Below, piece by piece: positions 3,542 to 27,530 of a stretch of 27,720 bases of DNA; within the stretch, counting starts at the first letter, position 1, and the number at the start of each line of letters is the position of its first letter. This stretch comes from Mesaphorura yosii (taxonomy: Eukaryota; Arthropoda; Collembola; Poduromorpha; Tullbergiidae). Under the pieces are notes generated by a model that saw only the letters and a program-made list of their open reading frames with translations, was not told where the DNA came from and ran no database searches. The translations under genes and the position numbers were made by a program. The stretch covers positions 1 to 27,720 of the forward strand of contig WIXG01000668.1 of the NCBI GenBank assembly GCA_009869945.1, read 5' to 3'.

Positions 3542-5466
3542 ATGACTACAACTATTGCACCAGCTGAGTTTGAGAAGATTGAAGAAATGAAGAAGCAGTT
3601 TGGTCCTAACCAACTGTTCACTGACCATAATTTCCCACCAAACGATGAGTCCCTCGGCAAATTGGAAGGTGACACGGCTGCAGGAGAGGCTGGACGGACA
3701 GAACAGAAAATATATTGGGCTCGTCCATACGTAAGGCAGTTCTTATGATTAATGTCTTAATATTATTCTAATACTAAGAAATATTGATTCAGGACATCTG
3801 CAACTCCCACGGAATTTCTCGTCCTTACTTTGTAGTAGTACAGGATGGTGATGAAGACAGGGAGCCATTCTCAATTTCCGACATAAAACAAGGGGGCTTG
3901 GGTGATTGCTGGTATATTGCTGCTCTACAGGCACTCACTACACGCCCCAATTACCTCCAAAACGTCATCCCTAGTAACAACTACAATGGATTCGAAGAGG
4001 GGGAGTACTGCGGTGTCTTCCAATTTCAATTTTATTCAATGGAAACCAATGAATGGGTGAACATTGTCGTTGATGATCTGTTGCCATGTACAAAAGACGG
4101 AGATAAGCTACTGCCCGCATTCGCTAAATTCACTACGAAATTTCGAATAGACGTAGAGGATTTGAAAGCCGAATTCTGGACGCCTTTAATTGAAAAGGCT
4201 TTTGCAAAATTCATCGGAAGCTACGCGCGCATAGAGGGCGGGTTTGCAAGTCAGGCTCTTTGCAATTTTACTGGAGGCTGGCCTGAATTTGTCATTCTAA
4301 GGCCTGATAATGACCAGTACAATTTCATCAAGTCCCGAATTAAAGCGGCTTTTGGGTCCTGTGGTTTCATGACACTACTATCACACACAATAGAAAATGC
4401 TGCTCGCGCGCATTGTCTTGATGGCTACACGAATTATATAAAAAACCTTGACAAGGAAGGGAAATGGACGGGAGCTGTTACCTGTGTTGGTTACAAATGG
4501 GAACCGGAGACGGGGCAGATCATTGATGGCAATGGGGAGAGTGTGGGGCTTGGTCTACTTGGCCCCCACTCTTATACAGTCATTAGAGCAAAAGAAGTTG
4601 GAGCTAAAGGAGGGGGTGGGTCTTACTTTCTACTCCAAATTCGCAATCCACACGCAACACATGAATGGACTGGACAATTTGCGGACAGAGACGAGACTTC
4701 ATGGGCATTGCTGGAACAAGATTTACGGATAGAATCGGTGCCCGGGTCAAAAGTGGTTGACGACGGTGTATTCTGGATTGAACTAAACTCTGTGCTTCGT
4801 TACTTTTATGCCGTTGAGTTTTGCTTCCCGAGAGGAGTTGGGGACGCTAAGCAACTGACAACAATAAAATCCGTTTGGCCAAAATCGCTTCAGGACAGAA
4901 AAAAGGCAATCAGAATTTCTGGCGCAGGTAAATTAGTTCATCGAAGAATCAATTGAAATTTCGATTTATTAAAATTAGTTAAAAAATGTCCTCTGCTTAC
5001 TTAAGTGTGTTAACCTGTCGATATTGCTATTTCAGCCACCGCAGAGTTCTCGGAGTTTCCAGCCTTCAAATTTTACATCAAGCCATCAAGCCACGGAGAC
5101 GGGGGCCAAACGTTGGGAATTACCCTTGTTTTGCACGGTTATCATTCGCTACTGACCCCAAACCCATATTTTGGATTTCTGTTATATAAACATGAAGTTG
5201 GAGTATGTAGAAAGAGTAAATTGGACAAAACTCAACTTGCAAGCATGTTTATGAATGAGAATCCTTTGATGAGATCGCCTCCGCAAAGCCCAGGAAGGGA
5301 TGTCAGTTGTTACATGAATGGCTTGGAAAGTGGCACCTACATCCTGGTAACAACTCTCTATGCCTCCTCAAGAAAATTACCACCTGAATTCCAAGGAAAG
5401 GAAATTGGATTCACTCTCAGAGTATGGACAGAAGCTGTAACTGAGATAGAACCAATTCAATATTAA
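3542..5466 (+). CDS. Calpain-type cysteine protease (three exons, no EF-hands)
   Basis: A cytosolic calcium-regulated papain-fold protease. Exons 3542-3730, 3793-4927 and 5036-5466 join at GTAAGG...TTCAG and GTAAAT...TTTCAG in phases 0 and 1, giving 584 residues. Residues 14-60 carry the calpain leader (LFTDHNFPPNDESL, then WARPYDIC). The protease core has QGGLGDCWYIAAL (Cys102), GPHSYTVIRA (His322) and QIRNPHATHEWTG (Asn348), so the triad is intact. About 220 residues separate Cys and His, against about 157 in classical calpains. The extra residues lie just before the GPHSYT strand. The third exon is a calpain C2-like (CBSW, domain III) module ending EPIQY; no penta-EF-hand domain follows, as in atypical calpains. 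I chose ATG 3542 over in-frame ATG 3503, which would add 13 hydrophobic residues not typical of the family. No neighbour is functionally linked. Confidence 0.9.
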
Positions 5467-6487: not shown

Positions 6488-6985
6488 TCAGAATTGACGA
6501 AGTTCGATCCAAAAATTAGAATTAACCAACTCCTTCCAAGTCGTCCGTGGTTCCTTACACCTGCATAATCCACAACAGACAAAGGAGAGTATGGACAAAA
6601 ATAGGAAAGCCCCAAACACGTACAGCACCCACAGCCAAACTGAATTCGGAATTCGATAAGTAAAATAAATCAAAGCTGATTTGATTTTGATTGTTGTATC
6701 GGACAAATGAGCGACCAGCACGTTTAACAAAGTCTCTGCTTGCGTCTTCTAGCCCCACATTTCTGAAACATATCAGGACTGTCAATTCAGGATGAGGATA
6801 GGAACTCTTGTCACATTATTAAACCGTTCACTTACCCATGTGTTCTTGTCCTGTCCGTTTGCGATTGTTCGGATGCCATGCTGCCTATAGTGATTTTGTA
6901 TCCTTTCCGAGGCCAAGACTGTTGCCAAGTACAGAGGCTGCACTGCAGCACCAGCACGTACTCTTCGACTCTTGGGGTCTAACAC
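6488..6985 (-). CDS. Possible two-exon end of a single-pass membrane protein
   Basis: On the minus strand the stretch VWLWVLYVFGAFLFLSILSF followed by VCCGLCRCKEPRTTWKEL is a clear transmembrane helix followed by a cysteine-rich, possibly palmitoylated cytosolic tail, ending at a stop at 6488-6490. A strong donor (TGG|GTAAGT at 6835) and an acceptor (GGGGCTAG before 6748) would join an upstream exon 6836-6985 in frame (…DKNTW|KTQAETLLNVL…). That exon has no ATG and overlaps degenerate repeats. A competing acceptor (TTTCAG, about 12 nt earlier) would give an early stop. No family is recognised; it could be a remnant. Confidence 0.2.
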
Positions 6986-7693: not shown

Positions 7694-7963
7694 TTATCCC
7701 ATCGGGAATTGAATGTAAGAAATCCTGTCCAGACGGTCGAACTCCGTTCCTTCGAATATTGCAGTTCCACCGATGAGGTACATTCTTGCTAGTTTCGGAA
7801 CGTAGATGCAGGATGCTTTCTCAAGTCGCGATGGCCATGACTCAACGAAAACTCGCTCAGTTAGGTTAGTGGTCGGATCGAACTTAAACAAGTATGGAGT
7901 AGAAATGTACCCAGGTTGAACGTACATATTCCCACCGTTGTACGCCGCGCAACGCCCTCGGGC
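7694..7963 (-). pseudogene. Kelch-repeat (beta-propeller) protein fragment
   Basis: The minus-strand frame is open from 7963 to a stop at 7694 and reads AAYNGGNMYV, then YLFKFDPTTN, then RLEKASCIYVPKLARMYLIGG, then ISYIQFP. Alternating aromatic and hydrophobic strands with GG pairs and the YVPKLARMYLIGG block match kelch blades (…Y.P...R.YIFGG…F.Y...). Only about 90 residues remain, roughly two blades, where propellers need five to seven. A TGA at 7964-7966 closes the frame upstream, and no clean acceptor is visible. It may be one exon of a broken gene. The F-box fragment lies just upstream in the same orientation across a TTAGG tract, so an F-box/kelch gene is one possibility. Confidence 0.45.
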
Positions 7964-11079: not shown

Positions 11080-14000
11080 ATGCAGGTTTCTTTCATAAGT
11101 TTCATGCTACTTATCCCCATCATCTCTGCCGAGGCAGCACTGGGAGGGGCACGTAAAGGGTCGCAGAGGGAGACTACAACCCTCCCTCCACCATACGTTG
11201 CTTATTTCGATGAATGGAACAGTACGCACTCCTCTATCCTCCTCTTATATTCAGCGCTATATTGTGCTAATTAATTGTCGTCTTGAATAGATTGTGAAAT
11301 GGGGGAGGGGGATTTCCAGTTGGCGCCGTGGATTGTCACAATTCGCCGAACTTCTTTAAGTGGGCAGGGCATGAGCATGCCAGGAGTGGTTCTCGACCAC
11401 CGCACAGTCATCACACAATGTCAGTCATAAACAGAACGCTTAGCAGAACGAGTTGTTAGCTATCCGGAATCCCCCTTTAATATTTGAACTTTGTTAATTT
11501 GTAGTCGTTCGGTACATCGTGGCGCCTGGGTCGGATTGGCGATTGTGCGAGGGAGCGACATACAAGGTGTATACGGATGGTGGGCAGGATTTAACTGATG
11601 GCATTGACGTTGTGAGGGTAACTCCGCATCCTTGGCTACATTGGGATGGGGTTGACCAGAACGATCATGAGTGGTGGGCGACACAACGGTACAACCTCGT
11701 GCTAGTCCACTTGAGGCGCCCACTAACGCTAAGCAAGACCCTACGCCCCGTTTGTATTCCGAGCCCAGAAGAAGGAGACTTGAGGGGGCTGATGCAGGCC
11801 ATCGGGTCAGGGTTCATTTCTGGGTACAACCGCCGCATCGCTAATCCCTTCCAACTCTTGACACTTGGCATTGACTTTCTTGGGGAAGAGGAGTGTGTGG
11901 AATGGTGGAAAGGGGAGACTGAGGTGGGGCAGCCATTGGGTGATCGACTGTGTGGCCGCAACTCACCCAGTGGGACACTGCTGAATCCTGAGATGATTTG
12001 CATCCCGATGGATGGCGGCACTGTCGTTCGGGTGGGCAATCGGACGCTCCTGCTCGGGTTTACCAACGAGTATTTCAGAAACCCACAAAAGGAGCGATGC
12101 GACGAGGAGGCCAAGCAGTTCATTTCAATCCTGAATGCCAACTCAACTGCGTGGATCCGTCGAGGGCAGGTGTGTGGCGCCCTGCAGTTTGCCTGCAGTG
12201 ACGGCAGTTGCATTCTGAACAGAAACTTGTGTGACGGGGTGACCGATTGTTCCGACGGTGGGGATGAAGATGCGCGGTACTGCAAGCCAAGGAATTGCTG
12301 CCTTCCGGGCGTGGAGTTTGCCTGCGGGGTGTATGGGCAGTGCATTCCCAGCTTTGGCGGGGTTGGTAACTGCAATGGCGTCGTAGATTGCCCCAAGGGG
12401 GAGGATGAGGATAGCGCCATCTGCCAGAAAACGACGAAAAGAACGTCGCAGAAACTCGGAATCGAAGTTGGGGTAGCCTCCGGCGTCGGTCTGACCTGTT
12501 CGGTCGGTCTCTTTGTAGTGTACTTTTGGCGTAGGAGGAGGAGGAGGGAGGTCAGTTAAAATTGGGAGGGAGGGTGTACATGGTTAAAATTAGAATATAT
12601 CTTCTCACCCGCAGTATCTGGCAAAGTTGACTGAGTTCCTCAAGTTTGGCGAGGGTGAGGGCGGAGGTGGGGACGGATATCCGGTGGGTGACATTCGAGG
12701 GGTGAGGTGCGACCACGCAGACGAGTACGACGAAGAGGACTGCGTGCGGGAGATGCTCCTTGGGAGAGGGCGATTTGGCGCTGTGTACAAGGCAAAACTC
12801 ATTATTAAGACAAATAGTGAAATAGATCCAACAGTGGTGGTAAAAACAAATCTAAGTGCCCTCACGGGTGTTGACTCTGGGGATGAGTTGGGGTCGTTCA
12901 TTTCCCTGGTCTCCGAGTTGAAAATGATGTTGCTGCTGAAGCAGCTGGGTGGTCATGACAACATTGTCCGGTTTAAGAAGGTCAACACAAAGCACATCAA
13001 GGCATGTAAGTAAAGTACCGGTCAATATGACATCTATACAATTCCATCTGTCAAGTCAGAATCGGTTGTGTTGCCAACAGATCGACTTGAGATTGCGATG
13101 GAGTACTGCGCCAGAGGGAGCCTCGAAAAGTTTTTACAGAGCAATCGATTTTGCTTTCGTGGGACCTGCACGCGAAATTTGAATCAATTTACGAATTTTG
13201 TGGATTCCGAGTTGGATAAGGGACGTGTCCTGCAACTGACAACTGTGGATTTAGTAAAATGGACAATGCAAATCGCACAAGCCATGCAGTTTCTTGCGGT
13301 CAATCGGGTACAGTTGCAACATGGTTTCGAAGGAGATAAGTTCGAGAAAGTGGAAATATTTTTGAATGATCTGGGTAGATTGTACACGGGGATCTGGCAA
13401 GCAGGAATGTGGTTTTGGATGGTGGACTGAATGCCAAACTTTGTGATTTTGGTCTTTCCCACCAACTATTTGAATCTTCCGCCATATACACGACCACTAC
13501 GCGGGTAAGTTAGGCACACGCTCACATTCTAACTGATTTTTGCATGTGTTTTATTCAGCTTGACATCCCGTGGCCGTGGGCGGCGCCAGAGGTGCTGGAA
13601 AGCTGTGGGCCGGTGTTCAACCTCAAGTCCGACATTTGGGGCTTCGGAGTCACCAGCTGGGAAATATTTAGCTTGGGCCAAGTTCCGTGGGCACATGTCG
13701 GAGGGGAGAAGGACCTCCTGGCTCTGCTGAACCGAGGCAACGTCCTACCCAGGCCGGAAAACTGTTCTAGCAACGAGTTGTACGAAATTCTGCAGTCTTG
13801 CTGGAAATTAAAGGCTGATGAACGAGTTTCTTCCGAGAAGCTCGTATTACAGCTGCAAAACATATACGACGTAAGCAGTTCATGGAGTATTGAATCCGGG
13901 TTCAGTGATTTGTATAGCATCTGTTGCATTTCAGAGGATGTGCTGCACATTTGAGGCGACGACGAGTGGACATGTGAGTGGTCCTTCCAACACCGCAGCC

Positions 14001-14129
14001 ACCAAGCCACTGCCGCCAGAAGGAGACGCGAAGGAAATGGTGGTGAAGATGGACGGGATTAATATGACCGGGACGTTGTGCGGGAATTACATTGCAATGG
14101 AGAGTTTAATCACTACGTCTTGTGAATAA
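11080..14129 (+). CDS. Receptor tyrosine kinase with inactive trypsin-like and LDLa ectodomain
   Basis: Eight exons (11080-11221, 11291-11419, 11505-12550, 12615-13005, 13081-13307, 13379-13504, 13559-13870, 13935-14129) join with matching phases into 855 residues. Domains in order: signal peptide 1-19. Chymotrypsin-fold domain ~49-300 (LAPWIVTI, GVVLDHRTVIT, NLVLVHLRRPLTLSKTLRPVCIP) with the triad lost: the His motif is gone (TQF for AAHC), the Asp position reads YNLVL, and GDSGG is replaced by PMDGG. LDLa modules lie at ~314-350 and ~355-387 with CDG..DC.DG.DED calcium motifs. One transmembrane helix spans ~408-432 and is followed by six arginines. The kinase domain spans ~482-789: GRGRFGAVY (489), VVVK (516), SELK (540), HGDLASRN (648), DFG (668), WAAPE and SDIWGFGVTSWEIFSLG. 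The tail has YIAM (843), a YxxM motif. A tyrosine-type kinase with a kinase insert, as in PDGFR/VEGFR-like receptors, with all core catalytic residues present. Type I membrane receptor; ligand unknown. Confidence 0.85.
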
Positions 14130-14130
14130 A
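14125..14130 (+). terminator. Poly(A) signal overlapping the receptor-kinase stop codon
   Basis: AATAAA overlaps the TAA stop at 14127-14129, implying an extremely short 3' UTR if used. No other AATAAA was noticed in the next 300 nt. Confidence 0.45.
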
Positions 14131-14629
14131 TTCTTGTCAAGCTCTAAATAAGTTAATGAGTGTGATAATTTAGTGGTGACAAGTTTCCACTTTAATAATA
14201 ATACTACTTGAATCTTTCCTTTGTGTCAAAAAAGGCCACACGTCATAACTTGGCCAATTCTCATCTTACCAGGCGCAATTTAATGTGCGCTGACGTTGAC
14301 GCGACCTTTACGATAACAGTCAATACGAATACAGAGAATACTTCGTTCTCAGAGCAGAGCATCATCGGTTCTTTGAATTTCTTGGTCTTTATCTTATTCG
14401 AGTGATCTCTTCACCTCGACTGGACACGAACTTTCTGGACCTTTATCACTTGTATGATGTATGGTGACTATTGAAAAGTTTACGATTAAGTTCCGAGAAT
14501 CGAAGGCTTAGATAAGAAAATCATTCAAAATAAAAGACTACAAGAGAATTTTGCGATTTCTTTCTTGTAGAATCGTTCAGTAAATGTTCGGAGTTTTACC
14601 AGGAAACTTGAGTTCCGTCCGTCCTAGCA
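14131..14629. other. Intergenic, nothing recognised
   Basis: Short frames lack any signature. An AATAAA at 14530 is not linked to a recognised gene. The stretch ends at the ATG of the gene at 14630. Confidence 0.35.
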
Positions 14630-15097: not shown

Positions 15098-15516
15098 TTA
15101 ACTGCCTTTATTAACGGTCGATTAACAGATCACTTTATTAGCCGTTACTGACTAACCGTCGATGGCTATTTTCCTGATGATTACGAGTGCTGCATTACTG
15201 GGCATCTGCCGACTTGGCTTAATCGACCACAGCGATTAGAGTAGTCTGGGAAGCGAGACTGAGTCAAAACAGCCTACCCTATCCTAACCTATTCACATTT
15301 TACGGGGTTTTTTTCAAGACAAAAACTTTAACATGTATTTTGGCACTTAATTAAGGTTAGATTAGGTTAGGTTAGGTATACTAGATTTCATGTGAAAATG
15401 CAGGATTTTGTGAGGTTTAGGTAGTTCAACATAACTCCGTAGTGAAGATCAAATTTTAGAATTTATTGGAACGTAGTAACAGTTAAAGTTTCGTTCCTAT
15501 TCAGGTTGTATTTTAG
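15098..15516. other. Intergenic with a TTAGG tract at 15352-15378
   Basis: TTAAGGTTAGATTAGGTTAG continues as GTTAGGTA, a short degenerate telomere-type tract. A single TCCTAACCTA occurs near 15283 in the opposite orientation. No gene is recognised. Confidence 0.55.
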
Positions 15517-15873
15517 TTTTCCATTTTCAATTTACCAATTTTCCAATTTCCATTTTTCCATTTTTCCATTTTCCATTTTCCCATTTTCCCATTTTCCATT
15601 TTCCCATTTTCCCATTTTCCCATTTTCCATTTTCCCATTTTCCATTTTCCCATTTTCCCATTTTCCATTTTTCCATTTTCCATTTTCCATTTTCCCATTT
15701 TCCCATTTTCCATTTTTCCATTTTCCATTTTCCATTTTTCCATTTTTCCAATCTTCCATTGTTCCATTTTTATTAACTGCTAAATGGAGAAATGGAAAAT
15801 GGAAAAATGGAATTATGGTTCCTTAGGAGGAGGTGGAGGAATGGAGAAATGAAAAATGGAATCACGATGGAAT
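15517..15873. repeat. Strand-switching CCATTTTC low-complexity array
   Basis: About 250 nt of pyrimidine-rich CCATTTTC/CCCATTTT units (15517-15770) are followed, after a short spacer, by the same motif on the other strand (AATGGAAAATGGAAAAATGG at about 15791, and again at 15841-15860). The whole is an imperfect palindrome. The apparent long open frames here (FPFSIFPFSHF and similar) are translations of the repeat, not genes. Confidence 0.85.
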
Positions 15874-16632: not shown

Positions 16633-18876
16633 TTACACTGCCTCAATGATGCCTTCGACTTCCCATGACTTAAATAGGTTGCCGTAATTCTCGTACTGGC
16701 CTAAGTTGCACAACTTCTTTGTTGTTGACTGCAGCCTTCTCTCGGCAACAATGAAATTGTTGGGAAGATTTTTTTCATCATTTATCCAGGGCAATTTCAC
16801 CGAGTATCTGCCGTCGTCTTCTCTCGTGACAGTATTCATAAAGTGCTGTTTGGCTTCCATGTCCTGTTCTTGTCGTGTTTTGGTTTCTCCAGGATCACGA
16901 ATGCCAATTGCCTCTAAACTCCAAAGTTCGGCTGGACTGAAGTTGACGCTGAGCATGGACGTAATGGAATTAAGACCGCTCTCATATCTTTGTATCCGTC
17001 CACTCAGGGTCCACCCCAAAACTGTTTCAACTGCTACAAGCCCGCAGTCCAGTTTCTGTCGTCGCCCTGTCATGAGCATTTGGTAGTAATCACTACCGAT
17101 AAGGATGCAGATCTCCGATTTTTGACATTTGGCTCCACTAAGATCGCAAATCCAAATGCCATGTTGCTTCAGTTCTTTGATCCACGGGCCCGGAGGCACT
17201 TTAGGAATGTCTCCACAAATCTTGGTTTCCTCCAGCATCTCAAAATTATAAACGTTGCTGCTGCGAGTAGATTTAAGCTGGACTTCGTATCTTTTGTGGC
17301 ACCCTGCTTTAGTGACTTGGCCTCCATACAAGGATCGACTTATCATTTCTTGTCCAACGGGTTTACAACCAACGGCTTCTGCTGTTGACGTCAATATACT
17401 TGACCGTTGGCTTCCGTTGTGGAAAAAACGTACAGTCGTGCGCTGACTCTTTTTACCAATGACGGTGACGAGTAAACTTTCAAGAATCACTTGTCCATGC
17501 ACCAGACTTGCGAGTCCTGATTGGACTTGGTCACCCTGTTTGCTCTCTTCTTTAAGATGCTGATCAGCTCGCCAGTTTTGTGGTGACTTCGGACACATCA
17601 GGGCGTAATGTTTCTTGGTACAGAAAGGACATCTGACTGCCACCTTACATTGTGACGCTGAATGGTTCTTTCTAAAACAAATGAAGCATCCACGGCTGTC
17701 CTTGACCTTCTTCATTTTCTCGTCCCAAGTCAATGATTGTGCTTTGATGCACTCTTGACTTGGGTGTTTTTTGTTACAAAAGACACATGACAGGTTGACA
17801 CCAGCCAAGAGACCAGCAGCCGTGGCGATGTCGTCGTCATGCTGTTGAGGCTTCTTTGCTTCCAACTTCCTGTACTTATACTTGTCTGCTGAAGTTGGAG
17901 CAAATCCTGCTCGTGACAAATGGCGTTGGTCTTCGCTCTCGACTTCCCTCTTCAGAAAATCAAGTAGGAAGTCTAATTCAGTTTTTGGAGGAACCAATTT
18001 GCTGCCGTCCTGGTTGTAGAAGTAGCTGCGTTGCCAGGCGACCAAAACTTCCTCAGGCAGACTCGATTCGACAAGCGGAAACAGGAACTCGGCTGACTGA
18101 TCGACCGTCACTCCGAGAGACTCCAAAGATCTGAGATGGCTTTCTAAATTGTCAAACATCTTTGAGAGGTTGACCTTGTCTTTGGTTTTTGTGTTGTTAA
18201 TTACCATCTTCAAGAGTTCACGGACATAAACTTGTTTAAGAAGTTTAGCTTTGCCAAAACGCTCTTGCAGTGCTGCGACGACCTTCGGGTAATTTTCCTC
18301 GCTTTGTGGGTAGCTGTTGACAAGCTCCTTTGCTCGGCTTCCTGTTTCAATGGACTGTACTAAATATTGAAATTTGTCAGATGGTGCTAGCTCGTTGTCT
18401 TCATGAATTTTCTTAAATTGGGCCCACCATCCAAGCCATTCCATTAGATCGCCATTGAACTTTCTGATCTCAATCTTAGGCAACTTGTACGTTTTCTTTC
18501 TCCCACCCACATCTGCAGTTTGGAAGTCTTCCTTGCTGCCCCCCGATGATAATCGGCGGCTCTTAGGCCGTTTTGTTACAGGTGGCTCAAGGACGTCATT
18601 TACTGTGTACTTCATTGTCCGTACTTGATCTTTGTACCCGTCGGATGCTGCCATTTCTTGAATTAACTCGTCCTCCGTGCATTCAGCGTCTAGCATGGCC
18701 TCCAAAACTTGTTGGTCAGCTTAAGCCAATTCTTCCCCTGCTTCCTGAAGCCTTTCTAATTTGGTACGGAGGACTCGGTGGTCGATGACCAGTTCATCCA
18801 TATCTGCATTCAACTCGTTGAGGGTTTTTGTGACACGGCCGCGATGAACAGCTCTGGCTCGCCTCAGACGGTCCAT
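16633..18876 (-). pseudogene. BEL/Pao retrotransposon gag-protease-pol fragment
   Basis: Minus strand. A start MDRLRRARAVHRGRV at 18876 reads in one frame to 16633, broken by a single TAA at 18721-18723. The 690-residue open part holds a BEL-type gag region (KLPKIEIRKFNGDLMEWLGW, DUF1759-like). Three CCHC knuckles follow (CVFCNKKHPSQEC, CFICFRKNHSASQC, CPFCTKKHYALMC). Then comes a retropepsin-like DUF1758 domain and the segment just before reverse transcriptase (LWSLEAIGIRDP, YSVKLPW). The protease motif reads FFHNGSQRSS where functional elements have an Asp-Ser/Thr-Gly-type site, so it is probably inactive. The RT, RNase H and integrase domains are missing, replaced at 16633 by the TTCAG repeat. 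This is a dead 5' half of an element; its PBS and part of an LTR lie at 19058-19300. Confidence 0.9.
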
Positions 18877-19746: not shown

Positions 19747-20122
19747 ATATTTCATCATACTGCTAACCGCCGCACCTTTCTCAAGGTGAAAGTCGGTTGC
19801 GTGGCGGCCAATCCAGCGTAGGAGTTTCGAAGGTGACTCAATTGCCATGGATTTGAAAATGAGCAGAAGGCAACCAGGCTAAAGCAGGCGTAAATGTAGT
19901 ATATATATATATATTTCATGCTACATAATTTCATTAGACTTCAAGTGTAATGAAATCCAATTGAAAAATTATTATTTCGTAATAGCTCTTAAATAAATTA
20001 AATTGTGATTGAGCAATTGGTTGAGTACATATAAAACATATAGCGAGAACCTTGTGTCGCCGTCTTGTCACTTCACGTACCACGATTTTTTATTGCAGAT
20101 TAATTGGGAGTTTCGATCCATA

Positions 20123-22021
20123 ATGAAGTTTAATCAAGCAGTTGCCTTCATGGTCACTTTGACCCTAATGGTCAGCTCAAATTCTCATATGGCTGAATCT
20201 ACGGACCTTCAGCTACAATATTTCAGCAAATGCGCATTTCATGTCGTCCACTTTTACGACATCGATTTTACAGAAAATATGGTCGTATCAAACCAGTACC
20301 GGCAGCCTTGGACAGTTTTCAATATCAGCAGACCTATGCTCCACGAGGCGCCTCCAACCGATGTACGAAAAGCTCCTTCTTGGGGTTACGACCGGGAATC
20401 TCGCTTCTGCAATGTGCACTTGCTCATAAAACCTTTCTACTCCTCAGTCCAAGCCGCAGTGGCCTATGCTGACGTGCACTACGTTAGAGAGAGACCGTTT
20501 GCATTCATCATTGTGGTTTCCGATCTAGAGCCCACGGAAAGGGTTTGGAGGGCCGCCCGTATGGACCTGTTCATCCAGTACACGTTTTCCCTATTCTATT
20601 TCCAAATTCGTGCAGGGGAAATTAACCGGCGGTGGATTTGCTCTATCAGCAGAAGGTTGTATCCAATACCGCGCGGCATAAGTTTAGTGGGGCGAAGGGC
20701 ACATTCATTGTACGTGAAAGGCACCAATTTCCATCGCAGTTCCTTGAGAATCCTGCACAGGTTTGCCAGTACTGAATCTCTAACTCTTCGCTGTCCCTCA
20801 GAATTCTACCCAACACCGTACTGGGACAAATCAGTCGATGTGAAAACTTTTACGGATATTTGCTCATCTAGCAGGAAGCTTGGTCTTATTATTGCGAGCA
20901 AATTCAACGCAACTGTGATGGTTGAAAATGTATTCCGAACCGAGGCATATTTTCCTGCCACCGTTGAAACTGATATGGAGTACCCATTTCTACGACAATT
21001 CGGCACACAAAGCCGTCTACTAACAAATAACATACTTGTGCATCTTGGGTACTGACAGCGTCAGATAAAACGGAACCCATTGACCACTGTCGAGTGGCTT
21101 CAAGCCTATGACATCGGGACATGGGCGTTGCTATTGGTCGCTGCACTCCTGGGTACACTTGTGACTGGCTTGTACGTGGACAGGGCCACCGGGCTACGCA
21201 TGCGAATCGATTTATTCAACATTTTGAGACTTATCCAGCTTGAAGGAAACGTGCGAAATAAGTTTCACCTTGGAATCATGGTCTGCGCTTGCATATTCAT
21301 TTCGTTATACGAGACTCACGTGACAAGCGTGGCGTTGGCACCCGGTCCACTGAAATTATTCACAACCGTGAAGGGCTTGCTTGAAGATGGTGGCTACAAA
21401 ATCGGATGGACGAACCAAATTGCACCAGAACGTATGTACAAGTCCGCCTTTGAACATCACAAAATCTCTCATTTACTTCATGTAGCATTCGTGAATTCTT
21501 CAACGCTCTCAGAAGGGGTTGCCCGGGCAATGTATTTCTTCACCCAAAGCGAAATACCACTGGTTGGAAGAAATTTGGTATTGGAGGGTTGGGAACCGTT
21601 GGGAGTGACAAAATGCCACATTGTAGAAGAGCAGTTGGGAAATGTTGGACAGAGCTGGGTGAATCTTTCAGGTATGTTTCGGGATGAAGTTGTTCGATTT
21701 GCACAATTTGCAGTTCAACATGGGTTTTTATATGTGTGGGACAAAATTGAGTTACGACGATTTGAGCTAGTGCTTCTGGAGGGTGAGAAGCGAGCTCAAG
21801 GCATGATCAAATCAGCGTTGAGTGATGACCCGGTTCCTGTTTCTCTGGACTTTGAAATCATCAAAATTTTCAGAATCTGCGCGTGCCTACTGGCTGCCAG
21901 TGCATTCGCTTTCATGTACGAACTGAGGGAAGAGGTCCTATTAGCTTGGAAAATATTGAAGGCTCGATTAGTTGCCTGGAGAGTCAAATTAATCAAATGG
22001 AAGAAAAGTTTCTTCTTTTGA
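20123..22021 (+). CDS. Ionotropic-receptor-like gene with one in-frame TGA
   Basis: A divergent ionotropic chemoreceptor (iGluR-related ligand-gated channel). ATG 20123 opens a signal peptide (MKFNQAVAFMVTLTLMVSSN). A 633-codon frame reaches 22019-22021, open except for TGA at 21053-21055 (codon 311). The first 310 codons form the extracellular N-terminus. After the stop come QRQIKRNP, M1 at ~333-352 (TWALLLVAALLGTLVTGL) and a pore-loop region. M3 is at ~381-407, where YETHVTSVAL stands at the place of the iGluR SYTANL motif. The S2 lobe follows, then M4 at ~580-601 preceded by SLDFEI. The gene at 26121-27434 shares the same landmarks (YENYLTSMAM, ALDFEI, TWILLL), which anchors the assignment and shows the reading on both sides of the TGA is genuine. 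No other lesion exists in about 630 codons. An upstream frame to 20009 exists, but the signal peptide favours 20123; TTATTGCAG at ~20098 could end a leader intron. Confidence 0.7.
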
Positions 22022-26120: not shown

Positions 26121-27434
26121 CTACTCACCACCCAGAAAACCCGCGGAGTTCCACAACTGCCAGAGCCAGCAACCCCACTCAAGCAGGAAGACGATCGCCG
26201 CCACTGAAAGGAGACCGCCGCAGATTGGAAATATCCGCATGATCTCGAAATCAAGAGCGAGCGGCTGTGCCTCCGCCGTTTCCTGCGAAGTTCGCTGCAG
26301 GGCACGCGGCAAGTCCCTCCGGTCTCTCTCGTTGTCAAGCTCCTTTTCGAAGTGATCCATTTGCTGCCACCAGGAAAAGATGCCGGACTCCATCAGCGTT
26401 TGCATGCGTCGAAGCATCGTGCCCCAGAGGAGACCGACGAACTGGGTGGACGGGTAATCGACGGCAAGACCCTCCCGAACGACGTGGCACAATGCATTGG
26501 CGGTGTTGTACTGCATCCAGCGCTGGATCTCCTGGGCCCATTCGCCCTTGATGACCCTTACGTGCCCCCTTCCCGCCACCGGCGAGCCAAATTCCGCGTC
26601 GGTCACTGCCAGGATGCTCGCGTTGGCATTCCGGATCCCGAGCCTCTCGAAATCCCACCCAAAGACCACCGAGGGCGACACTGTTTTCCCGCAAGAGACA
26701 TTCAGCGCCCGGTCGCACCACACCAATCTGTGGCCGCTGGCCAGCAGCTCGGCAACCGTGTCGTAGAAGAGCGGCGGGTTGGCCGCCATCGCCATGCTCG
26801 TCAAGTAGTTTTCGTAGCATCCCAAAAACACAGACGCACCAACTGCGACCGCCAGCTGGATGGCGGATCGAGCGTCTGCTTCGGTTTGGAGGAGGCGCAG
26901 AAAACGAAAGGGGTCCACCCTGAGTCTGAGGTCGCCCCGGACCCGAATTCCATCCACAAATGCCCCGAGGACCACAACGGCCAGAAGCAGGATCCAGGTT
27001 GACTGATCGAAGGCGCCCAGCCAGTTCACGTCGTTCCTAATGCGGCGTCCGTCATACTCGCAGTAAAGTAAAGAAGCACTGGTCGAGCCCAGCAAGAATA
27101 CTTTAAACTTTACGTGGGACAGCACAGGTACGTAAATGTTCTCAACGTAAATCTTCGTCAACGCTGCTTCCTGCCCGGAGTGCTTTATGGACGCGTTCAG
27201 GCTGGCAACGATGAACATGGCAGCTTTGGTGGCGTGCTGGCAGTTTCCAAACTCCAGGCGACTGCGGTGGAGGCAGCTGAGGGCGTCCGAGCTGAACGGA
27301 ATAGGCATGATGGTGAGTTGCCGCCCGCTCAGGCTTCGGCGGTCACAGGCACTCGCACGGCCGAGGGCGACCCAGTCCTCATGCGCCAGGCAGTATTCCA
27401 AAAGCTGGATCACAACGCCCTCTTTTATTACCAT
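26121..27434 (-). CDS. Ionotropic-receptor-like chemoreceptor, probably 5'-incomplete
   Basis: Minus strand, 437 residues from ATG 27434, uninterrupted and GC-rich compared with its neighbours. After a shortened extracellular part come YDGRRIRNDVNWLGAFDQ, M1 (STWILLLAVVVLGAFVDGI), a pore-loop region (LRVDPFRFLRLLQTEA) and M3 with YENYLTSMAM in place of the iGluR SYTANL motif. The S2 lobe ends in PLALDFEIMRIFPICGGLLS, and M4 follows. It is a clear relative of the gene at 20123-22021. About 145 residues precede M1 here against about 330 there, so the N-terminal part of the ligand-binding region and the signal peptide are missing. The frame stays open upstream of 27434 for about 13 codons and contains TTAATGTTAG, an acceptor-like string, so an upstream exon may lie beyond. 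The stop at 26121 overlaps a strong donor consensus (GTGAGT). Odour ligand unknown. Confidence 0.7.
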   Translation of the reverse strand: MVIKEGVVIQLLEYCLAHEDWVALGRASACDRRSLSGRQLTIMPIPFSSDALSCLHRSRLEFGNCQHATKAAMFIVASLNASIKHSGQEAALTKIYVENIYVPVLSHVKFKVFLLGSTSASLLYCEYDGRRIRNDVNWLGAFDQSTWILLLAVVVLGAFVDGIRVRGDLRLRVDPFRFLRLLQTEADARSAIQLAVAVGASVFLGCYENYLTSMAMAANPPLFYDTVAELLASGHRLVWCDRALNVSCGKTVSPSVVFGWDFERLGIRNANASILAVTDAEFGSPVAGRGHVRVIKGEWAQEIQRWMQYNTANALCHVVREGLAVDYPSTQFVGLLWGTMLRRMQTLMESGIFSWWQQMDHFEKELDNERDRRDLPRALQRTSQETAEAQPLALDFEIMRIFPICGGLLSVAAIVFLLEWGCWLWQLWNSAGFLGGE

Positions 27435-27477
27435 GTGAAACAGGGAGAAGCTAACATTAAGTAGATGAAGTTTTATA

Positions 27478-27530
27478 TTTTATGAATAATTGTCATGAAT
27501 TGTCATGAATAATTGTCATGAATTTTGTTT
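27478..27530. repeat. Short AATTGTCATGAAT tandem repeat
   Basis: TGTCATGAAT recurs four times with AATAATTG or AATTG spacers just upstream (minus sense) of the second ionotropic-receptor-like gene. Confidence 0.65.

Follow-up and report, generated by a model that had tools for sequence, protein, structure and literature searches.

Descriptions of animal receptor tyrosine kinases usually draw on a small number of ectodomain types. Here we examine a stretch of 27,720 nucleotides (the window) from the collembolan Mesaphorura yosii (contig WIXG01000668.1 of GenBank assembly GCA_009869945.1), which carries at 11080–14129 of its forward strand a gene of 855 codons plus stop. The sequence reads as a single gene, coding for a receptor tyrosine kinase of type I with a catalytically dead trypsin-like (S1) domain and two LDLa modules in its ectodomain. 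We refer to it by its contig label in the assembly, C668, and to its relatives by theirs; L numbers denote loci. Coordinates are those of the window and lie on the forward strand unless stated otherwise.

Gene structure and domain architecture

Eight exons, joined across introns of 54–85 bp that are all GT–AG, give an open model of 855 residues, in agreement with the consensus splice sites and matching phases proposed by a sequence-only reading of the window. Exon 1 (11080–11221) is followed by exon 2 (11291–11419), in which the protease-like domain starts, and by a long exon 3 (11505–12550) that holds most of this domain, both LDLa modules and the transmembrane helix, and that has matches on other contigs. 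A phase-0 intron of 64 bp (12551–12614) separates the transmembrane exon from the kinase exons. These encode the juxtamembrane segment and the kinase N-lobe with its G-loop and lysine (exon 4, 12615–13005; Pfam), a kinase insert region recognised by eye (exon 5, 13081–13307), the catalytic loop HGDLASRN and DFG (exon 6, 13379–13504; motif check) and APE with the C-lobe (exon 7, 13559–13870; Pfam), and exon 8 (13935–14129) adds a cytoplasmic tail and the stop codon. When GT and AG sites were enumerated within short stretches that we chose around each join, 30 models remained open. Every one of them uses the donor at 12550, with an acceptor at 12615, 12627 or 12636. Joins 13005/13081, 13504/13559 and 13870/13935 are likewise fixed throughout; alternatives exist for the first two joins and for the donor before 13379.

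Hydropathy marks two stretches of the predicted protein, residues 1–24 and 410–432. The first contains a signal peptide (residues 1–19; 11080–11136), placed by eye and by hydropathy windows starting at residues 1–6; the second is a transmembrane helix of about residues 410–431 (12461–12526) followed by the stop-transfer sequence RRRRRR (residues 433–438; 12530–12547). Between them, alignment and the family profile described below place the pseudo-trypsin domain, spread over three exons (residues 48–310; 11221–12163). Next come LDLa module 1 (residues 314–350; 12173–12283; Pfam 314–348) and LDLa module 2 (residues 356–397; 12299–12424), which Pfam matches in two stretches (Ldl_recept_a, PF00057, E = 1.4e-7) and PDB matches cover over residues 313–397. 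The tyrosine kinase domain (residues 485–785; exons 4–7; 12750–13852) is recognised by PDB matches and by Pfam over residues 487–785 (PK_Tyr_Ser-Thr, 3e-58), and keeps LGRGRFGAV, VVVKT, HGDLASRN, DFG and APE. On sequence grounds the protein therefore has the structural features of a receptor tyrosine kinase: a signal peptide, one transmembrane helix and a cytoplasmic kinase domain with its catalytic motifs.

The domain order that the sequence-only reading had given (signal peptide, trypsin-like domain, two LDLa modules, transmembrane helix with six arginines, tyrosine kinase) was recovered by Pfam, hydropathy, motifs and the family profile, and the kinase elements it had called intact (GxGxFG, Lys, Glu, HGD, DFG and APE) are all present by motif check, the alpha-C Glu being identified by eye. 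The profile search it had recommended for the 855-residue model came out in part: PK_Tyr_Ser-Thr and Ldl_recept_a are significant, and Trypsin stays below the Pfam cut-off. Neither a MAM nor an Ig domain was detected in the window protein by Pfam at E 1 or better. The best PDB matches of the kinase by phmmer (best 60 of 1820) include FLT3, PDGFRA, FGFR, VEGFR1 and KIT, and a two-copy EGFR construct ranks first among them by summed score; this comparison of kinase class uses PDB matches only. The tail contains YIAM (14088–14099), a putative docking tyrosine that we take to be of the YxxM type. Similar tails are GYILYNS in C454 and RYIAFS in a first-pass model of C608.

A family of related receptors under constraint

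Relatives were searched in the window's own assembly (93.0 Mb, 1127 contigs). The search with the ectodomain found 29 matches, counting the exons of the window gene itself, and that with the kinase part at least 118 (100 of 253 candidates scored). We aligned 18 loci with our own spliced-alignment program, using C454 as its own template. True-strand scores were 323–1679 in 15 of the 17 other loci (C996, 101; C961, 113), and wrong-strand scores were 41–61, except for C444 (95–115) and C646 (367–373), the latter with another kinase on its other strand.

Fourteen members are free of stops in the aligned part: C668 (the window gene), C454, C666, C608, C914, C903, C444, C254, C1030, C94, C876, C779, C779b (a second tandem copy) and C297. 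Only C668 and C454 run in full from Met to stop. The other 12 models are open-ended alignments, and a few of them, C444 above all, contain doubtful tiny exons; alignment rather than Pfam served to identify their LDLa and kinase parts. The transmembrane exon of C94 was missed by the refined model and is present in the first-pass model; that of C779, also missed by the refined model, was not located. The second LDLa module of C779 and C876 is degenerate by eye. Left out of the 14 were four broken loci (C646, C826, C533 and C996, all with stops in the aligned part and three of them with frameshifts too), C320 (stops inside its match), C527 (partial) and C961 (no kinase found). Searches for relatives by peptide pattern in prokaryote genomes (27 pattern matches) and viral contigs (3) yielded none that was confirmed.

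We next compared the window gene with four relatives (C454, C666, C914 and C608). Amino-acid identity is 0.42–0.48 in the pseudo-trypsin domain, 0.53–0.65 in the LDLa modules and 0.50–0.54 in the kinase, and fourfold-degenerate third positions agree at 0.17–0.37 in these three folded parts (on 11–18 sites for LDLa). Against C454, for example, the protease part reaches 0.44 in amino acids and 0.33 at fourfold sites, and the kinase 0.54 and 0.26. Silent sites are thus near saturation, so that selection has held both halves of the protein.

The ectodomain contains a pseudoprotease

As the Trypsin match of the window protein itself is too weak, we used a family profile instead, made from an alignment (A1) of 12 pseudo-trypsin domains and searched against PDB. 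Activated protein C is its best match (9.7e-10). Of 356 matches, the 60 listed consist entirely of S1-type proteins, among them thrombin, complement factor B, C1s, factor IX, factor Xa and TMPRSS2. The alignments to factor IX and plasminogen activator span nearly the whole domain. When the 12 members were scanned singly, 8 reached E 1 or lower against Pfam Trypsin (the best 2.4e-9), and DSG motifs retained in several members further support S1 ancestry. The family profile settles the predicted chymotrypsin (S1) fold of the family ectodomain.

The window protein has V, N and G at the positions of His57, Asp102 and Ser195. With the His57 position placed from the PDB alignment of the family profile, none of the 14 members has His there (13 by motif placement and C454, which reads LITSFV, by alignment). 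The Asp102 position is Asp in 6 of the 14 (F in the alignment of C608), and the Ser195 position is, by eye, Ser in eight: C454, C666, C608, C914, C444, C254, C1030 and C94. Because the histidine is missing throughout, the domain is a predicted pseudoprotease, as the sequence-only reading had supposed, and loss of His is the common denominator of the dead protease across the family. A zymogen activation site of the R/K-IVGG kind is also absent from the window protein and C454, whose N termini are both complete, and from the other 12 members in the stretch covered, from the first Cys onward; here the search started at PW in C94 and two or three residues before the Cys in C297 and C608. An active S1 protease is ruled out by the triad and, for the window gene and C454, by the missing activation site.

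Ectodomain and kinase belong to one gene

On C454, the ectodomain and kinase matches lie inside a single stop-free frame of 900 codons. Pfam recognises LDLa (5.9e-9) and kinase (2.5e-63) in this frame, and its protease-like part aligns to residues 47–430 of the window query with 45% identity (3.5e-93). Reading the locus as two genes split at 12551–12614 is ruled out for the family by this uninterrupted frame, and the single gene across the junction, as first proposed, holds for the family. The ectodomain and kinase searches and the spliced alignments found the same domain order on many other contigs, which is more than chance would give.

Introns were compared among 12 intron-bearing models. 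A phase-1 intron at adjacent alignment columns 118/119, taken as one and corresponding to the end of window exon 2, occurs in 10 of them; other common positions are column 782 (phase 1, 9 of 12), column 921 (phase 0, 7 of 12) and column 878 (phase 0, 6 of 12). Eight models, that of the window gene included, have a phase-0 intron shortly behind the transmembrane segment. Its position at column 600 is common only to C666, C608 and C914; in C779, C876, C297, C1030 and the window gene it falls at columns 592–615, where the alignment is loose. C454 lacks every intron that its relatives share. A frame that is intact yet has lost its introns is what a copy derived from spliced mRNA should show, and C454 is probably such a copy; if so, that mRNA held ectodomain and kinase together.

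Related kinases carry other ectodomains

A search of the assembly with PF07714 at E 0.001, in which 129 of 642 candidates were scored, gave at least 159 exon-level matches, a figure that should not be read as a number of genes. Pfam was used to scan ten long kinase frames, C454 among them. In C789 (L035, 1–2454), Peptidase_S8 (6.5e-28) and a kinase (5.8e-76) share one open frame. The subtilisin domain of C789 was compared with seven further loci and matched four, which correspond to three more places where S8 and kinase adjoin on the same strand: the forward strand of C646 (L027), C981 (L017) and the reverse strand of C646 (L038 and L050). These three are cases of adjacency, with no gene model. 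Judged by eye against the S8 motifs, C789 lacks His and Ser of the triad, C646 (+) lacks Ser, C981 lacks His, and in C646 (−) both Asp and His are missing and the Ser region has diverged too far for a call; these are the four places examined among 72 S8 matches in the assembly. On this sequence evidence, a second and unrelated protease fold is used in the way that S1 is, as a dead kinase ectodomain. On C793, a partial S8 match (13989–14231, +) lies upstream of a kinase match (15212–15703, +) and is possibly a fifth subtilisin–kinase locus.

Kelch-propeller ectodomains are found on the kinases of C654 (L029), C539 (L033), C578 (L060) and C732 (L065). The kinase of C346 (L062) has an Ig match (1.7e-7) and a weak lysozyme-like stretch (3e-4, below cut-off), and that of C313 a weak Ig match (0.0041, below cut-off). 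No clear ectodomain match was seen by Pfam in C727, C610, C992, C604 or C185; C604, C185 and C732 were scanned in addition to the ten frames. In the window itself, an 80-residue stretch on the reverse strand (7712–7951) is 31% identical to the end of the C578 Kelch ectodomain (alignment score 109), with no Pfam Kelch match and no kinase recognised alongside; a hydrophobic frame lies at 6488–6748 (−).

A maximum-likelihood tree was built from 29 kinase domains of our choosing, with the ACK-like C653 as an outgroup row. Counting the 13 pseudo-trypsin rows against the four Kelch rows alone, and leaving the 12 unlabelled rows uncounted, the tree needs one change. The tree does not show all pseudo-trypsin rows as a single clade: C903, which has a long branch, and the group of C297, C779 and C876 sit at forks that it leaves open. 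The Ig-bearing C346 groups with the four Kelch kinases and C1099 (support 99/96); the order inside this group is likewise left open, with C346 either sister of the Kelch rows or nested in them. Such near-sister kinases with different ectodomains point to ectodomain exchange among the kinases of this genome, as far as their sequences go. The tree is without reference kinases of other animals and so does not demonstrate that the kinases are lineage-specific.

A possible donor of the ectodomain

One ectodomain relative without a kinase was studied further. C961 (L056) encodes a pseudo-S1 domain (Trypsin 3.9e-5), then an LDLa-like stretch seen by eye, for which Pfam gives no LDLa match. Separate frames hold a Sushi-like stretch, whose E of 5.6e-4 is at the cut-off, and a trypsin domain (1.9e-36) that is intact, with LITAAHC and GDSG; these domains are joined here by neighbourhood. 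No kinase was found in the 7 kb of the locus, nor is C961 among the kinase matches listed. Its resemblance, we presume, is to a modular serine protease, and its similarity to the window ectodomain is low (23% identity, E 1.7e-4), so that C961 is a lead, not a demonstrated origin: a possible donor of the ectodomain and a possible modular immune protease.

Other features of the window and assembly

The window also contains a calpain-type protease exon (3778–4956, +; Peptidase_C2 1.6e-54) with GDCW and other catalytic-looking motifs by eye. Two long frames (20009–22021, +; 26121–27479, −) resemble, by eye, divergent chemoreceptors of the ionotropic-receptor type; neither has a significant Pfam match. 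A retroelement gag-like frame (16633–18720, −; DUF1759 3e-23) is probably of the Pao/BEL type. On the reverse strand, 9445–9939 matches DUF6570 (9.5e-7), a domain often found with Helitron-like helicases. Elsewhere in the assembly, TTAGG arrays occur on contigs C900, C1051, C1061, C1070 and C1114.

Discussion

We propose that the window gene and its family encode ligand-binding receptors that reuse a dead protease fold as part of a recognition repertoire, a reading to which its sequence basis gives slightly better than an even chance. The dead protease would bind ligand through its retained S1 fold and surface loops, and the LDLa pair would form a calcium-stabilised stalk or offer a further binding site. 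A bound ligand would pair two receptors, their kinase domains would phosphorylate one another, and SH2 proteins would dock on tail tyrosines such as YIAM. This mode would resemble that of HGF and MET, except that the dead protease would be part of the receptor itself. Possible ligands are cascade proteases, inhibitors, microbial proteases and self peptides. That similar kinases carry dead S8, Kelch and Ig ectodomains suggests such a repertoire rather than one conserved growth-factor receptor. A bolder version is possible, though less likely than not: an expanded, germline-encoded repertoire of mostly non-RD receptor kinases with recycled enzymes and propellers. It would be the animal counterpart of the receptor-like immune kinases of plants, and its dead proteases would recognise the partners of live ones (substrates, inhibitors or microbial proteases).

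Several observations weigh against this proposal. The window protein falls short of the Pfam cut-off for Trypsin, both as the full model (0.015) and as the domain alone (0.0015), and 4 of the 12 members scanned singly have no Trypsin match at E 1. The C454 frame shows no Trypsin at E 0.1 and a single LDLa stretch, so that its protease-like part had to be identified by aligning it with the window protein. Many of the best PDB alignments of the family profile span only the first two thirds of the domain, and the single-sequence structure prediction for exon 3 was uninformative (pLDDT 37.9), so that the S1 fold rests on sequence profiles. The transmembrane and juxtamembrane segments are poorly conserved (identity to the window protein 0.23–0.33 in the four pairs). 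Finally, the HRD arginine is missing in 27 of the 29 kinase rows (HGD in 21, HSD in 4, HLD in 2; non-RD) and kept in C444 and the outgroup row C653; its loss may alter how activation works.

Other explanations account for parts of these data. The ectodomain might instead act as a sensor in a protease cascade, binding or being cut by cascade proteases or protease–inhibitor complexes and reporting to the kinase. Cascade-starting modular proteases combine such domains as pseudo-S1, LDLa-like, Sushi-like and intact trypsin, the make-up of the C961 locus, and dead S1 proteins serve arthropod immune proteases as cofactors. This sensor is nevertheless rather unlikely: C961 is only 23% identical, with its LDLa seen by eye and its domains joined by neighbourhood, and a different type of ligand would have to serve the Kelch and Ig versions. 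The kinase matches to FLT3, PDGFRA, FGFR, VEGFR1 and KIT would suit a conventional receptor for growth factors or development, of the same kind as PDGFR, VEGFR and FGFR, its new ectodomain a mere scaffold for a conserved peptide ligand. We find this distinctly improbable, since 14 diverged members, with 0.42–0.65 amino-acid identity per folded domain in seven pairs, and similar kinases with other ectodomains both fit a repertoire better than one developmental pathway.

Two simpler explanations concern the gene itself. Several relatives are broken (C646, C826, C533, C996 and C320), and the window gene might likewise be a non-functional duplicate or a decaying copy, but it is stop-free, its kinase motifs are intact and it is constrained against near-saturated silent sites, which leaves such decay very hard to credit. 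Least plausible is a wrong joining of two neighbouring genes, one for a secreted or membrane protein with a serine protease homologue (SPH) and LDLa, the other for a kinase. A mere 64-bp intron links the two parts in the window, but C454 encodes the SPH–LDLa part and the kinase without interruption, and the order recurs from contig to contig.

Comparison with known systems places the proposed receptor near several groups. ALK has MAM and glycine-rich regions and no trypsin; ALK and LTK resemble the window protein as receptor tyrosine kinases with LDLa outside, and the window protein differs from them in having no MAM match and a kinase that matches FLT3, PDGFRA and FGFR well. The FPVR subgroup, which holds FGFR, PDGFR and VEGFR, is similar in the kinase domain and in a kinase insert (by eye), whereas the window ectodomain is without Ig by Pfam. 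Type II transmembrane serine proteases such as TMPRSS2 also combine trypsin and LDLa on one membrane protein; in the window protein, by contrast, the dead protease comes first and a kinase lies inside, in place of an N-terminal transmembrane segment and a C-terminal protease. In PMC8662651, LDLa is reported in ALK, the FPVR subgroup is named and ectodomain shuffling across holozoan receptor kinases is described; its main text contains none of the words trypsin, peptidase, protease and Kelch. In the titles and abstract beginnings of the open-licence literature searched, we found no description of a receptor kinase with a protease-type ectodomain.

If two unrelated serine-protease folds (S1 and S8) do serve as dead ectodomains of receptor kinases in one genome, this would show that enzyme folds can become receptors repeatedly. 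The family offers a ready set of relatives for testing what a dead protease recognises, and ectodomain shuffling should here be open to study among close relatives in one genome. For the C789 group, rather than the window gene, there is a parallel in CspC and CspA, the dead-subtilase sensors of clostridial spores: C789 matches the NCBIfam CspC and CspBA models, far below cut-off, and the Csp proteins are bacterial and without a kinase. The non-RD immune receptor-like kinases of plants are alike in forming a large family with varied ectodomains and a catalytic loop without the HRD arginine; they differ in having an unrelated history and Ser/Thr rather than tyrosine specificity. HGF and MSP are catalytically dead S1 proteases that activate the receptor kinases MET and RON, and here, as predicted for the window gene, a dead S1 fold is the recognition element of receptor tyrosine kinase signalling; in HGF and MSP the dead protease is a separate secreted ligand, whereas in the window gene it would be the receptor's own ectodomain.

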